A stretch of 64,000 nt of DNA, from assembly GCF_900117415.1 (NCBI RefSeq), contig NZ_FPEI01000006.1, positions 1,116,001 to 1,180,000 of the forward strand, given 5' to 3'. The notes beneath the pieces are model-generated. The model was not told where the DNA came from. It did not search any database and saw only the letters and a program-made list of their open reading frames with translations. This DNA is from Hyphomicrobium sp. CS1BSMeth3. Lineage in GTDB: Bacteria; Pseudomonadota; Alphaproteobacteria; Rhizobiales; Hyphomicrobiaceae. Positions 15,132 to 18,465 of this stretch are shown here, one piece after another. A program made the translations under genes and the position numbers. Every line of letters starts with the position of its first letter. Position 1 is the stretch's first letter.

Positions 15132-16760
15132 TCACGGAATACCGGCTGGCCGAGGCTGCCACACACGGCCGGACAAGACGACGGCCAGACCGCATAACAG
15201 CATGAGCGCAAACCAAAGATCTCCGTAGCGAGCATAGCTGGTCGGCGGGATGGCCGCTGGCACGCGCGCGTCGATCACCCCCACCACATCGAGGTCCAGG
15301 CGGTGCAGGACGCGGCCGCGGGCGTCGATGACGGCGGAGATCCCATTATTGGCCACGCGCAGCAGGGGCAATCCCTCCTCGACCGCACGCACACGCGCCT
15401 GATGCAGGTGCTGGCGCGGGCCCGTCGTGTTGCCGAACCACCCGTCATTGGTGACATTCACGAGGAACGACGGGCGTTCCTCACCTTGCACGACGGCACG
15501 CGGGAAGATGGCCTCGTAGCAGATGAGCGGGGCAAAGCTGGCCATGCGTGGCAGCGCCATGAGCGGACGCGGGTTCGGACCGGGGGTGAAGCCTCCGCGC
15601 CGGCGCGTCAGCGGCTCGAGCCCGATGGCATCGAGCAGCGCGTTGAGCGGCAAATATTCGCCGAAGGGTACGAGGTGGATCTTGTCGTATATGGCCACCG
15701 GTTTTGCTCCGGCACCGAAGGCAATCAGGCTGTTGTAGATGCGGCGCGATCCCCCTGGCGCGCTTGCGTCGGGTGGATCGGCGCGCAGGCCACCGGAAAT
15801 GAGATGCGTGCCAGCCGGCAGGGCTTTGCCCAGCTCTTCGAGGGCCGTGGGCGTGTCGAGGGGGAGGAAGGGCATAGCCGCCTCGGGCCAAATCACGAGA
15901 TCGACGCCCTTGGCACCATCCTCAATTCCCGCGGCATTTCGGGACGTCAGCGCGAGGTGCAGATCGAAGATCCGCCGCTGGTGCTGGGACTGCCACTTCT
16001 CGCGCTGGGGCACGCTCGGCTGGACGAATCGGACGCGCGGTCCTTCGGTCGATACCGCTTGGACCGCCGCGAGCTGCCAGTGGCCATAGGCCATGAGTGC
16101 GAAAATCGTTCCGACCGAGATTGCCATGCCGCGCAACGGCGCTCCGTCGGCCCACGCCACGAGCGGCGCCGCGAGCACGAGCACGGCGACGAGGCTCAAT
16201 CCGTAGATGCCGATCAGCCCCGCGGTCTGCATGAGGCTCTCGGGATAGGTGAGCGCATAGCCGATCACGTTCCACGGAAAGCCGGTGAAGACGTGCCCGC
16301 GCAGCCATTCGGCAGCGGCAAGCGCCAGCGCAAGAGCAAGGACGCGCACCAATCCCGGCCGCCACACGAGGGATGCCGCCGCCGCGGCACCCGCCCAGAA
16401 GAGCGCGAGCCCGGCCGGCATGACGGTGACCGCAATGGGGATCAGCGCGGCAAATTTCTCTGCCTCCACGAGGAAGGCTTCCCCGATCCAGAAGAGGCCG
16501 GCAAAGAAATAGCCGAACGCGAACCACCAGCCGATCAGCGCCGCGCGCGCCGTGGGCCTATGGCGCCACGAGACGCCCGCCGGGAGAGCCAGCGCCCCAT
16601 CGATCTGCCAAACGAGCAGTGCGAACGTCACAAACAGCACGGGCCAGATGTGAAACGGCGCCACGGCCAGCACGGAGACGACACCGGCCGAGCACGCCAG
16701 CGCCGCTCGCTGCCATCCCGTGCGTCCCCGCACCCAGTTGGCCAAACGCTCTATGATCAT
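15132..16760 (-). CDS. lnt: Apolipoprotein N-acyltransferase Lnt
   Basis: A 542-residue inner-membrane enzyme that adds the third acyl chain to the N-terminal cysteine of lipoproteins. About six N-terminal helices precede the carbon-nitrogen hydrolase domain. The catalytic triad is visible: Glu in VIWPEAAMPFL, Lys in YDKIHLVPFGEYLP and Cys in LICYEAIFPRA. NVTNDGWFGNTTGPRQHLHQARVRAVE is the conserved catalytic loop. A final membrane helix lies at about 517-533. The gene stands 175 bases downstream of the acyl-CoA ligase gene, separated by a palindromic element. The usual neighbours ybeX (corC) and metK are absent. Confidence 0.95.
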   Translation of the reverse strand: MIIERLANWVRGRTGWQRAALACSAGVVSVLAVAPFHIWPVLFVTFALLVWQIDGALALPAGVSWRHRPTARAALIGWWFAFGYFFAGLFWIGEAFLVEAEKFAALIPIAVTVMPAGLALFWAGAAAAASLVWRPGLVRVLALALALAAAEWLRGHVFTGFPWNVIGYALTYPESLMQTAGLIGIYGLSLVAVLVLAAPLVAWADGAPLRGMAISVGTIFALMAYGHWQLAAVQAVSTEGPRVRFVQPSVPQREKWQSQHQRRIFDLHLALTSRNAAGIEDGAKGVDLVIWPEAAMPFLPLDTPTALEELGKALPAGTHLISGGLRADPPDASAPGGSRRIYNSLIAFGAGAKPVAIYDKIHLVPFGEYLPLNALLDAIGLEPLTRRRGGFTPGPNPRPLMALPRMASFAPLICYEAIFPRAVVQGEERPSFLVNVTNDGWFGNTTGPRQHLHQARVRAVEEGLPLLRVANNGISAVIDARGRVLHRLDLDVVGVIDARVPAAIPPTSYARYGDLWFALMLLCGLAVVLSGRVWQPRPAGIP

Positions 16761-16772
16761 GGGTATTAGTGC

Positions 16773-16939
16773 CTAGTGTCCCGATTCCGCAGTTCGCCAC
16801 ATCTCGATGCTAGCGCCCCGAGCGAACTTCGGAATCAAAAGGGGCACTAGAATCATAAACTTGCTTGTGTGATTCAGATCGAGAAATTCGCTCGATGCCG
16901 TGCCCCGGGAGATGGCGAATTTCTCGATCATCACACTAG
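16773..16939. repeat. 167-bp palindrome-rich element with terminal CTAGTGT/ACACTAG repeats
   Basis: The element fills the gap between the ligase and lnt. Outer ends CTAGTGT (16773-16779) and ACACTAG (16933-16939) are inverted repeats. Inside are three more: 16773-16796 against 16823-16850 (imperfect, about 24-28 bases), GAATCA/TGATTC (16850-16855, 16870-16875), and a perfect 15-base pair 16877-16891 / 16915-16929. The last extends by GTGTGAT/ATCACAC (16867-16873, 16930-16936) with a 3-base bulge. The right end supplies the ligase stop codon. Four GANTC sites lie at 16783, 16832, 16850 and 16871. It may be a small non-autonomous repeat, a regulatory region for lnt, or both. Confidence 0.6.
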
Positions 16940-18465
16940 TCGCGGCTTTCCTCGATGAGCCACGTGCGCAGCTCGGTCTTCAGGATCTTGCCGTAGTTGT
17001 TCTTCGGCAGTGCGGCAACAAAGCGGTAGCCGCGAGGGCGCTTGTAGCGGGCGATATTGTCGAGACAGAGCTGATCGAGGTCCCCCGGCCCTGCCTGAAC
17101 GCCCGGACGCAGGACAATATAAGCGACAACCTCCTCGCCCCAGTCGGCGTGCGGCCGCGACACGACCGCGGTTTCGAGCACGGCGGGGTGCGTCAGCAGG
17201 ACTTCCTCGATCTCGCGCGGATAAATGTTCGAGCCGCCCGAGATGATCATGTCCTTGGAGCGGTCCTTGATGGTGAGGAAACCTTCGGCATCCATGGTGC
17301 CGAGATCACCCGTCCAGAGCCAACCGTCGCGCAGCGCCTTGGCGTTCGCTTCGGGGTTCGCCCAATAGCCTTTCATCACCGCGTCGCTGCGCGTGACGAT
17401 CTCGCCGACCTCACCCCGCGGCACCTCACGGCCCCGATCGTCCACGACCTTGATGGCGCAGCCCGTGCGCGCGATGCCCGTCGAGCCGAGCCGCTCGTCG
17501 TAGCGCGGGTGCTCGCTGTCGGCGTGCATCCATTTCGGCAGGCCCGAGATGGTCATCGGCGACTCGCCCTGACCGAAGAGCTGGTAGAACTTCGGCCCGA
17601 AGACCTCCATGGCGCGCTTGATATCGGCGACGTACATCGGCGCGCCGCCATAGCTGATCGTCTTCAGGTTGCGCGTATCGGCAGAGCCCGCGAGCGGATG
17701 CGTGACGAGACGCGTCACCATGGTCGGCGCGGCGAACATCGCGATGTTCGAGTGCAGCGGCATGGCACGCAGAATGCGCTCCGGCTCGAAAGAGCCTGGA
17801 ATGATGACATTGTGCCCACCCCGCGCCGCGAAGGCGGCCGCCCAGCATCCCGAGCCGTGCGAAAGCGGCGCCGCATGGAAGCACGTATCGCGATGATCGA
17901 TATGGTCGATGTCCGTGCAGTAGGCGTGCGCGCAGAACAGCAGATTGCGGTGCGTGAGCATGGCGCCCTTGGGCCGCCCGGTCGTGCCGCTCGTGTAGAA
18001 GAGCCACGCTTCATCATCGATCGTCACCGGGCTCTCGCTGATGGCTTCACCGGCAAGCAGCGCCGCATGATCCCGCGAGCCCGTCTCGATGATCAGCGGC
18101 AGTGAGACGCCCCCCGGCAGCTCGGCAAGCTGGGATAGTTTGTCGGGCGTGATGAGGCACAGCTTCGCGCCTGAGTTCTCGAGGATCCACTGGAGCTCCT
18201 TGGCATGGAGCTTCGCGTTGATCGGCACGACCGCAAGGCCCGCCCGCCAGGCGCCGAACATGAGCGGCAGGTATTCGAGGCAGTTCTCCATCCAGAGGCC
18301 TACCCGGTCGCCAGCCCTGAGGCCGTGGCGAGCGCGGAGCGCGCCCGCAATTCGCGCGACTTGGTCCTCGAACGCGGCATAGGAGAGTGTGCGCCCCTCC
18401 TCCGATATTGCGGGGCGATCGGGCTGGTATTCCGCCACGCGCTGCAATGTGTAAGACAGGTTCAT
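16936..18465 (-). CDS. AMP-forming acyl-CoA synthetase (fatty-acid/aryl-CoA ligase)
   Basis: A 509-residue member of the ANL superfamily. LFYTSGTTGRPKGAMLTH is the ATP P-loop, YQLFGQGESPM the adenine/substrate motif and DGWLWTGDLG holds the ribose-binding Asp. KDRSKDMIISGGSNIYPREIEEVL is the hinge, and PKNNYGKILKTEL carries the catalytic C-terminal lysine. It activates a carboxylic acid to the acyl-AMP and then to the CoA thioester in the cytoplasm. Size and lack of membrane segment fit medium/long-chain or aryl acid ligases; the acid is unknown. The stop codon lies inside the palindromic element, so the 3' end may have been altered by its arrival. Confidence 0.9.
   Translation of the reverse strand: MNLSYTLQRVAEYQPDRPAISEEGRTLSYAAFEDQVARIAGALRARHGLRAGDRVGLWMENCLEYLPLMFGAWRAGLAVVPINAKLHAKELQWILENSGAKLCLITPDKLSQLAELPGGVSLPLIIETGSRDHAALLAGEAISESPVTIDDEAWLFYTSGTTGRPKGAMLTHRNLLFCAHAYCTDIDHIDHRDTCFHAAPLSHGSGCWAAAFAARGGHNVIIPGSFEPERILRAMPLHSNIAMFAAPTMVTRLVTHPLAGSADTRNLKTISYGGAPMYVADIKRAMEVFGPKFYQLFGQGESPMTISGLPKWMHADSEHPRYDERLGSTGIARTGCAIKVVDDRGREVPRGEVGEIVTRSDAVMKGYWANPEANAKALRDGWLWTGDLGTMDAEGFLTIKDRSKDMIISGGSNIYPREIEEVLLTHPAVLETAVVSRPHADWGEEVVAYIVLRPGVQAGPGDLDQLCLDNIARYKRPRGYRFVAALPKNNYGKILKTELRTWLIEESRD

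Follow-up and report, generated by a model that had tools for sequence, protein, structure and literature searches.

What is the block of inverted repeats that separates lnt from the gene of an AMP-binding ligase in Hyphomicrobium sp. CS1BSMeth3, by what means did it arrive there, and do the four GANTC sites that it carries have any bearing on the expression of lnt? We addressed these questions in assembly GCF_900117415.1 (6.02 Mb, six contigs), where the locus lies on contig NZ_FPEI01000006.1, here called C2, between positions 1,116,001 and 1,180,000; this whole stretch of 64,000 nt is referred to as the window, and positions such as 16773 are window coordinates. Judged from sequence comparison, the block is best read as an old copy of a MITE that would have been moved by an IS630-type transposase and whose family is now fossil in this genome, a reading to which we give a probability of about 0.93.

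Architecture of the element at the lnt locus

The features of the locus are listed with their strand, where one applies, and the evidence for each.

16773..16939, + strand: putative MITE copy, 167 bp including both CTAG (dispersed copies, loss of similarity in the flanks, empty sites)
16773..16797, + strand: left terminal inverted repeat, CTAGTGTCCCGATTCCGCAGTTCGC (resembles the 3'-side end of the IS630 partners)
16915..16939, - strand: right terminal inverted repeat, reading inward, CTAGTGTGATGATCGAGAAATTCGC (resembles the 5'-side end of the IS630 partners)
16773..16776: putative left CTAG target copy (single CTAG at the empty sites of other loci; CTAA or TTAA in three relatives at this one)
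16936..16939: putative right CTAG target copy, its TAG being the ligase stop codon
16773..16850, + strand: hairpin 1 (complementarity, RNA fold, covariation over 62 copies)
16851..16863: 13-base spacer between the hairpins (40-copy alignment)
16864..16939, + strand: hairpin 2 (complementarity, fold, alignment, covariation)
16783..16787: GANTC site 1, GATTC, left arm of hairpin 1
16832..16836: GANTC site 2, GAATC, right arm of hairpin 1
16850..16854: GANTC site 3, GAATC, foot of hairpin 1 and spacer
16871..16875: GANTC site 4, GATTC, left arm of hairpin 2
15132..16760, - strand: lnt, apolipoprotein N-acyltransferase (PF20154 2.4e-24, PF00795 5.6e-24), its start 12 bases from the element
16936..18465, - strand: AMP-binding ligase (PF00501 2e-82, PF13193 3.6e-18), its stop codon, 16936-16938, in the right CTAG

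The preliminary description had seen a gap built of inverted repeats between CTAGTGT and ACACTAG, and this construction holds, as the element runs from CTAGTGT at 16773 to ACACTAG at 16939 and, of its 167 bases, 154 belong to the two hairpins. The figure of 167 bases is right for the element and wrong for the gap, which measures 175 bases between the reading frames (16761-16935). The arms of hairpin 1 (16783-16797 and 16822-16836) are 93% complementary and those of hairpin 2 (16877-16891 and 16915-16929) 100% complementary; as + strand RNA the element folds at -79.5 kcal/mol (z -8.9, with none of 200 shuffles equally stable), and as - strand DNA its fold has a z of -8.2. This copy departs from its family at two places, the left terminal inverted repeat having GCAG for the GAAG of the consensus and the left foot of hairpin 2 being CTTG, not CTAG. 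No Rfam family exceeded its gathering score in the window (best sub-threshold E 0.48), and a consensus scan of 16600-17100 found neither a terminator-like nor a sigma-70-promoter-like site.

A dispersed and modular family

The genome-wide search for dispersed copies that had been proposed at the outset places the 167-mer in a large family. BLAST against its own genome returned 144 candidates, 40 of which were scored, all 40 being near full length, and end-pattern searches with up to three mismatches found 95 left arms and 107 right arms where a reversed control pattern found none. As a few of the 107 right-arm sites are not among the 109 loci fetched, the copy count is a lower bound: at least 89 distinct full-length copies (150 or more of the 167 bases in one piece) were recovered, 45 in plus and 44 in minus orientation, on five of the six contigs. 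In the alignment of 40 copies similarity drops sharply at the CTAG on both sides, and the flanks are unrelated. The family is thus short, at 167 bp, abundant, with 89 full-length copies, and free of a transposase gene, as is an IS630-associated MITE. Pairwise identity averages 0.82 and reaches 0.958 in the closest pair, no two copies being identical, which argues against a recent burst, as expected where no transposase is present.

Lone arm sites marked 34 odd loci, which comprise fragments, fusions, inversions and ordinary copies, and among which no transposase-bearing element was seen. One-hairpin forms of about 73-123 bases lie at L078, L079, L080, L086, L088, L098, L100 and L101 (the count is not exhaustive), the hairpins are inverted relative to each other at L074 and L097, and the family is modular, as a third type of hairpin with the same CTAGTGT/ACACTAG feet replaces hairpin 1 at L076:1501-1667 and L081:1501-1667. 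These rearrangements, together with the CTAGTGT/ACACTAG-like feet that bound both hairpins, would suit a composite origin, compatible with the IS630 reading, in which two one-hairpin MITEs inserted side by side and were later mobile as one; yet the two-hairpin form is by far the commonest (89 full-length copies against some eight one-hairpin forms among the 34 odd loci) and the one-hairpin forms look like fusions of two arms, so that we entertain such an origin tentatively, at rather less than even odds. At a further locus in this genome (L072, about 1570-1650, C2 near 2439090) half an element adjoins a different palindromic repeat, CTAAAGCAAC.../...GTTGCTTTAG, which may represent another small mobile family sitting within this one.

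Empty sites and the choice of target

Comparison of the ligase 3' end with that of relatives, which had also been called for, found ligase and lnt adjacent and the element absent in the three congeners G001, G002 and G003; in G004 the sole match is at another ligase locus. Where CS1BSMeth3 reads CTAG-element-CTAG, CTAA stands in G002 and G003 and TTAA in G001, so that none of the three displays the exact pre-insertion site of the lnt locus. The ligase ends at the same place in these three genomes as in CS1BSMeth3, with TAG in G002 and G003 and TAA in G001. It was literally correct that the right end of the element provides the ligase stop, which lies within the CTAG; since ligases without the element end likewise, however, the insertion struck the stop codon itself and left the gene untruncated. 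The three empty sites further suggest that the insertion apparently occurred after this species split from its congeners.

At other loci we compared the junctions of 10 flank pairs, out of a larger number found. C5_639928 is filled in G001 and empty in G004, where exactly one CTAG stands in a clean junction (GTATG-CTAG-GCC); C3_942987 is empty in G004 and C1_55595 in G003, each readable and with one CTAG; at C3_718402, likewise empty in G004, CTGG stands in its place; and at C1_53246, C1_507554, C2_1404416, C2_2436112 and C5_180428 the junction is too diverged for reading. One CTAG in the three readable empty sites and a CTAG-like sequence at both ends of filled ones is the pattern of a TA target duplication, which, CTAG being palindromic, is indistinguishable from a duplication of CTAG. 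Insertion sites differ among species.

Where 78 CTAG would be expected, the window has 21, of which four belong to the element. The TAG of a neighbouring gene lies within a terminal CTAG in 22 of the 89 elements. The window and the loci fetched from this genome also hold 116 CTAG that belong to no element, of which 30 are at stop codons, 64 intergenic and 22 coding, so that elements and free sites are at stop codons in like proportion (25% vs 26%). None of the 89 elements lies inside a called gene, although in three cases a gene end reaches into the element, by 9, 18 and 77 bases; the median distance from element to the 3' end of the neighbouring gene is 7 bases. Gene contexts came from a purpose-written codon-usage caller that set the lnt start at 16673 instead of 16760, and distances to 5' ends are therefore rough. 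The presence of the ligase stop in the target CTAG follows from the scarcity of CTAG and its frequent overlap with TAG stops, and target choice plus the loss of harmful insertions would explain the positions of the elements. The family thereby offers an example of a transposon using stop codons as harmless landing sites. In L226, L344 and L345 the stop codon of the IS630 transposase is itself the TAG of the terminal CTAG.

IS630 partners in relatives

Relatives carry IS630-family elements of 1.17 kb whose ends match those of the 167-mer. In G006 (L226:158-2505) two identical copies of 1176 bp each, CTAGs included, stand in direct tandem with one CTAG common to both, and their transposase has DDE_3 and helix-turn-helix domains (NCBIfam transpos_IS630, NF033545, 8.4e-86). 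The terminal inverted repeats of the MITE family are shared with this autonomous element, which matches the family consensus at 22/25 bases on its 3' side (left end) and 20/25 on its 5' side (right end). Seven partner ISs entered the end comparison, from G006, G029 and G003 and from alphaproteobacterial plasmids, those of Rhodovastum, Roseomonas, Komagataeibacter and Bradyrhizobium. The left end is matched at 20-21/25 by G029, G003, Roseomonas, Komagataeibacter and Bradyrhizobium and at 18/25 by Rhodovastum, the right end at 18-20/25 by partners other than G006 and G003. Set against 300 shuffles (best 17/25, mean 13.4), the better end of each partner, 20-22/25 in all seven, lies above the shuffle maximum; the poorer end reaches 18-20/25 in six of seven, while the right end of G003, at 16/25, is within the null. 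Five of the seven have the polarity of ends of the MITE; in the exceptions, G003 and Rhodovastum, both ends are of one type. End matches of 14 and 16 came from two IS630 at a greater distance (50% and 41% identical). The interior of the MITE is common to none of the ISs examined.

Contig 59 of G013 holds a decayed IS, 61% identical and with two stops, which was not among the seven and one end of which matches consensus bases 1-22 at 91%. At six G009 loci an IS end matches at 22-23/25. Several of the G009 contigs (L235, L237, L243-L246) end inside the same IS630 end, which suggests that G009 has many near-identical, possibly active IS630 copies. On contig 56 of G013 a weak element match adjoins one IS630 gene, whose ends were scanned for a 7-base motif only.

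In the genome of CS1BSMeth3 itself (G000) a DDE_3 (IS630) profile search found no match, the same search being positive in three of 14 control genomes, and a search for the partner transposase found none either. A partner IS in the same genome is usual for active MITEs and is not required of old copies; here it is absent, and within the genus G003 has one, with a transposase 66% identical in protein. As this genome lacks the partner transposase, the link between MITE and IS630 rests on the ends found in relatives, and the mover of the family was most likely an IS630-type transposase that the genome no longer carries. The suggestion that the block resembles a small non-autonomous mobile element is borne out by the 89 dispersed copies, the empty sites and the matching ends of these IS630 elements.

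Distribution of the family

At E<=0.001 the element has a match in 19 of 60 genomes, its own included: all four congeners searched, 13 of 31 other genomes of its taxonomic family (nine below 1e-10 and four weakly) and, with one weak match, one of 24 genomes elsewhere in the order. An initial impression of similar sequences in related genomes has thus been substantiated. Among 199 genomes drawn from the order (seven from the same family, with at most four candidates scored per genome), matches at E<=1e-8 were confined to CS1BSMeth3 and G011, of the same family. A 22-base core occurs, among the matches listed, on contigs of Hyphomicrobium, Filomicrobium insigne and Hyphomicrobiaceae MAGs, and on some contigs labelled Hyphomonadaceae, Devosia or Brevundimonas. 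The taxonomic family concerned is probably the Hyphomicrobiaceae.

Carriage by phages was rejected, the 22-base core being absent from the viral contigs searched, as was carriage by plasmids, the element having no match in 72,556 plasmids.

Alternative explanations

The hairpins might owe their persistence to the host, which would have recruited them as RNA elements of many transcripts: selection would retain them as sites for RNase, as stabilisers or as attenuators, and mobility would belong to their past. Pairing holds in 97.4% of the cells across 62 copies, and double changes affect 20 of 48 stem pairs, where shuffles average 3.0, none of 500 reaches 20, and slid pairings give 5-9. In 11 orthologous comparisons at the ten loci filled in this and another genome, both partners have changed in 14 of 527 pair cells, and 13 of the 14 are still paired, against 3.35 double changes of any kind expected under independent change, from which it follows that pairing was partly restored after insertion. 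Element identity in these comparisons is 0.77-0.96 and exceeds that of both flanks in four of 11, as at C2_919708 (L027) vs L044 (element 0.96, flanks 0.88 and 0.80) and C3_1264757 (L261) vs L297 (0.95 against 0.86 and 0.75), which simple neglect would not predict. The proximity of neighbouring 3' ends would also suit an RNA role, as would the precedent of Correia elements, described in PMC10969869 as RNase III substrates. Yet the same 11 comparisons hold 43 pair-breaking single changes, insertion sites vary between species, the lnt locus has no terminator-like, promoter-like or Rfam-matching sequence in the regions scanned, and L027 lost, and L089 gained, exactly a 3-base bulge in such a way that the arms became mirror images, which suits template-switch correction. 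The title of PMC8794818 states that template switching can create and maintain hairpins. We consider a host-recruited RNA element unlikely, and take these repeats as a warning that strong stem covariation in them need not imply functional RNA; with its 89 copies, some dated by orthology, the family lends itself to testing whether palindromes can stay paired through template switching alone.

Four GANTC sites within 93 bases (starts 16783, 16832, 16850 and 16871) had prompted the suggestion that the element makes lnt expression follow the cell cycle through CcrM. The cluster itself is genuine: the window has 50 GANTC where dinucleotide shuffles predict 324, which means that the motif is avoided there, and four of the 50 are in the 167-mer (Poisson P about 8e-6 at the window's own rate, about 0.01 at that of the shuffles). 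Such depletion, with relative intergenic enrichment, is usual in Alphaproteobacteria outside the Rickettsiales according to PMC3973325. The genome also encodes CcrM (PDB 6pbd match, 1.9e-155; RAMA domain), and site 4 is well kept, in 38/40 copies of this genome, 7/8 of congeners and 12/14 of other genera. All four sites together, however, are kept in 18/40, 4/8 and 3/14 of the same sets, and GANTC columns of the stems are on average less conserved than other stem columns (0.950 vs 0.975 in this genome, 0.877 vs 0.955 in other genera). Sites 1 and 2 pair mutually and are therefore not independent. Over 89 copies the 16 columns that define GANTC vary at 0.090 and the four free N columns at 0.031, and at sites 1-3 this looks like erosion rather than upkeep. 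Since G001-G003 have no element upstream of lnt, and hence no conserved promoter GANTC, and no sigma-70-like promoter was found in the scanned region, a CcrM-dependent regulatory element for lnt has in our judgement next to no likelihood. The 89 full-length copies carry 240 GANTC sites in all, perhaps 5% of the genome total as extrapolated from the window. The GANTC of the left repeat, lying within the putative transposase-binding end, might have had another use, in that CcrM methylation could have timed transposition of IS630 and MITE to the cell cycle, as Dam sites time that of IS10; of the seven partner ISs, six have a GANTC in their 3'-side end, which in one case is GAGTC and not GATTC, and one has it in the 5'-side end. 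We think this improbable; if true, hemimethylation solely after fork passage would give the timing, and GANTC erosion in old copies would reflect host avoidance of surplus sites once immobile. Finally, the union of two hairpins in each unit, the large number of copies, their extragenic position and one-hairpin derivatives such as L078, L080, L086 and L100 recall REPINs, doublets of inverted REP hairpins moved as single-stranded DNA by a Y1 (RAYT) transposase. Against this stand hairpins of 76-78 nt, a duplicated CTAG target, ends that match a DDE (IS630) element, and a Y1_Tnp search with 0 matches in this genome and positive results in five of 14 controls; REP/RAYT identity was rejected on that empty search, and we attach almost no probability to a REPIN-type origin.

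A model for the origin of the lnt copy

We propose the following model for an IS630-type MITE at this locus. The transposase would have recognised the two ends of about 25 bases and excised the element, a biochemistry taken over from work on IS630 relatives, and the element would have been joined into the TA of a CTAG with duplication of the TA, giving the CTAG...CTAG that most copies read. The duplication would regenerate TAG at a gene end, so that an insertion there would leave the gene undestroyed, and insertions in coding CTAG would have been purged. With no transposase found in this genome, the copies would then have drifted into a fossil family, for which both the empty IS630 and Y1 searches and the lack of any two identical copies argue. 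The copy at the lnt locus would have landed in the ligase stop codon, 12 bases upstream of lnt. Since insertion, pairing of the arms has in part been maintained; template switching that repairs the nearly perfect palindromes as they are replicated would account for this most economically, the alternative being selection on RNA structure. This model would explain about ninety otherwise puzzling hairpins in this genome, and many in related genera, and supplies a candidate enzyme for them.

Comparison with known systems

The family is best read as an old IS630-type MITE, apparently inactive in this genome and ordinary in kind; its notable features are the double hairpin, the targeting of CTAG and stop codons, and the covariation. 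We did not find it described in the literature searched, a body that most subscription papers lie outside. REPINs are likewise extragenic, non-autonomous doublets of hairpin-forming repeats, as set out in PMC3116915. Unlike them, the MITE has a duplicated CTAG target and DDE-type ends, and its genome has no Y1/RAYT match.

Likened by description, Bru-RS of Brucella and RIME of Rhizobium are, as is the MITE, alphaproteobacterial intergenic palindromes in tens of copies, RIME being an intergenic palindromic repeat of Rhizobium present in such numbers. Bru-RS is given as 103-105 bp and 35-40 copies in PMC2267715.

Correia/NEMIS of Neisseria and RUP of Streptococcus pneumoniae, MITEs associated with IS630/Tc1/mariner, resemble the 167-mer in their length of about 100-200 bp, high copy number and position between genes. 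Their ends are of about 25 bases, they duplicate TA, and an IS630-type transposase mobilises them. Correia is reported at 204 bp and more than 120 copies (PMC10969869), and RUP is tabulated among such intergenic repeats in PMC2267715. Compared by description, the 167-mer differs from both in having two full hairpins per unit and in inserting mostly in CTAG.

IS630 and ISY100 share with the 167-mer insertion at TA with TA duplication and are autonomous, whereas the 167-mer has no transposase gene. For ISY100, PMC2170065 documents insertion at TA, which is duplicated, ends of 24 bp and two helix-turn-helix motifs in the binding domain, and the title of Tenzen and Ohtsubo 1991, cited there, names a preference for TA in 5'-CTAG-3'. 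The partner IS630 elements, on the plasmids of Roseomonas, Komagataeibacter, Bradyrhizobium and Rhodovastum and in G003, G006 and G029, differ from the MITE in their interior and in possessing a transposase gene, and have the CTAGTGT-type ends of the MITE, with variant 5' ends in Roseomonas (CTAGTAT) and G029 (CTAGTGG).
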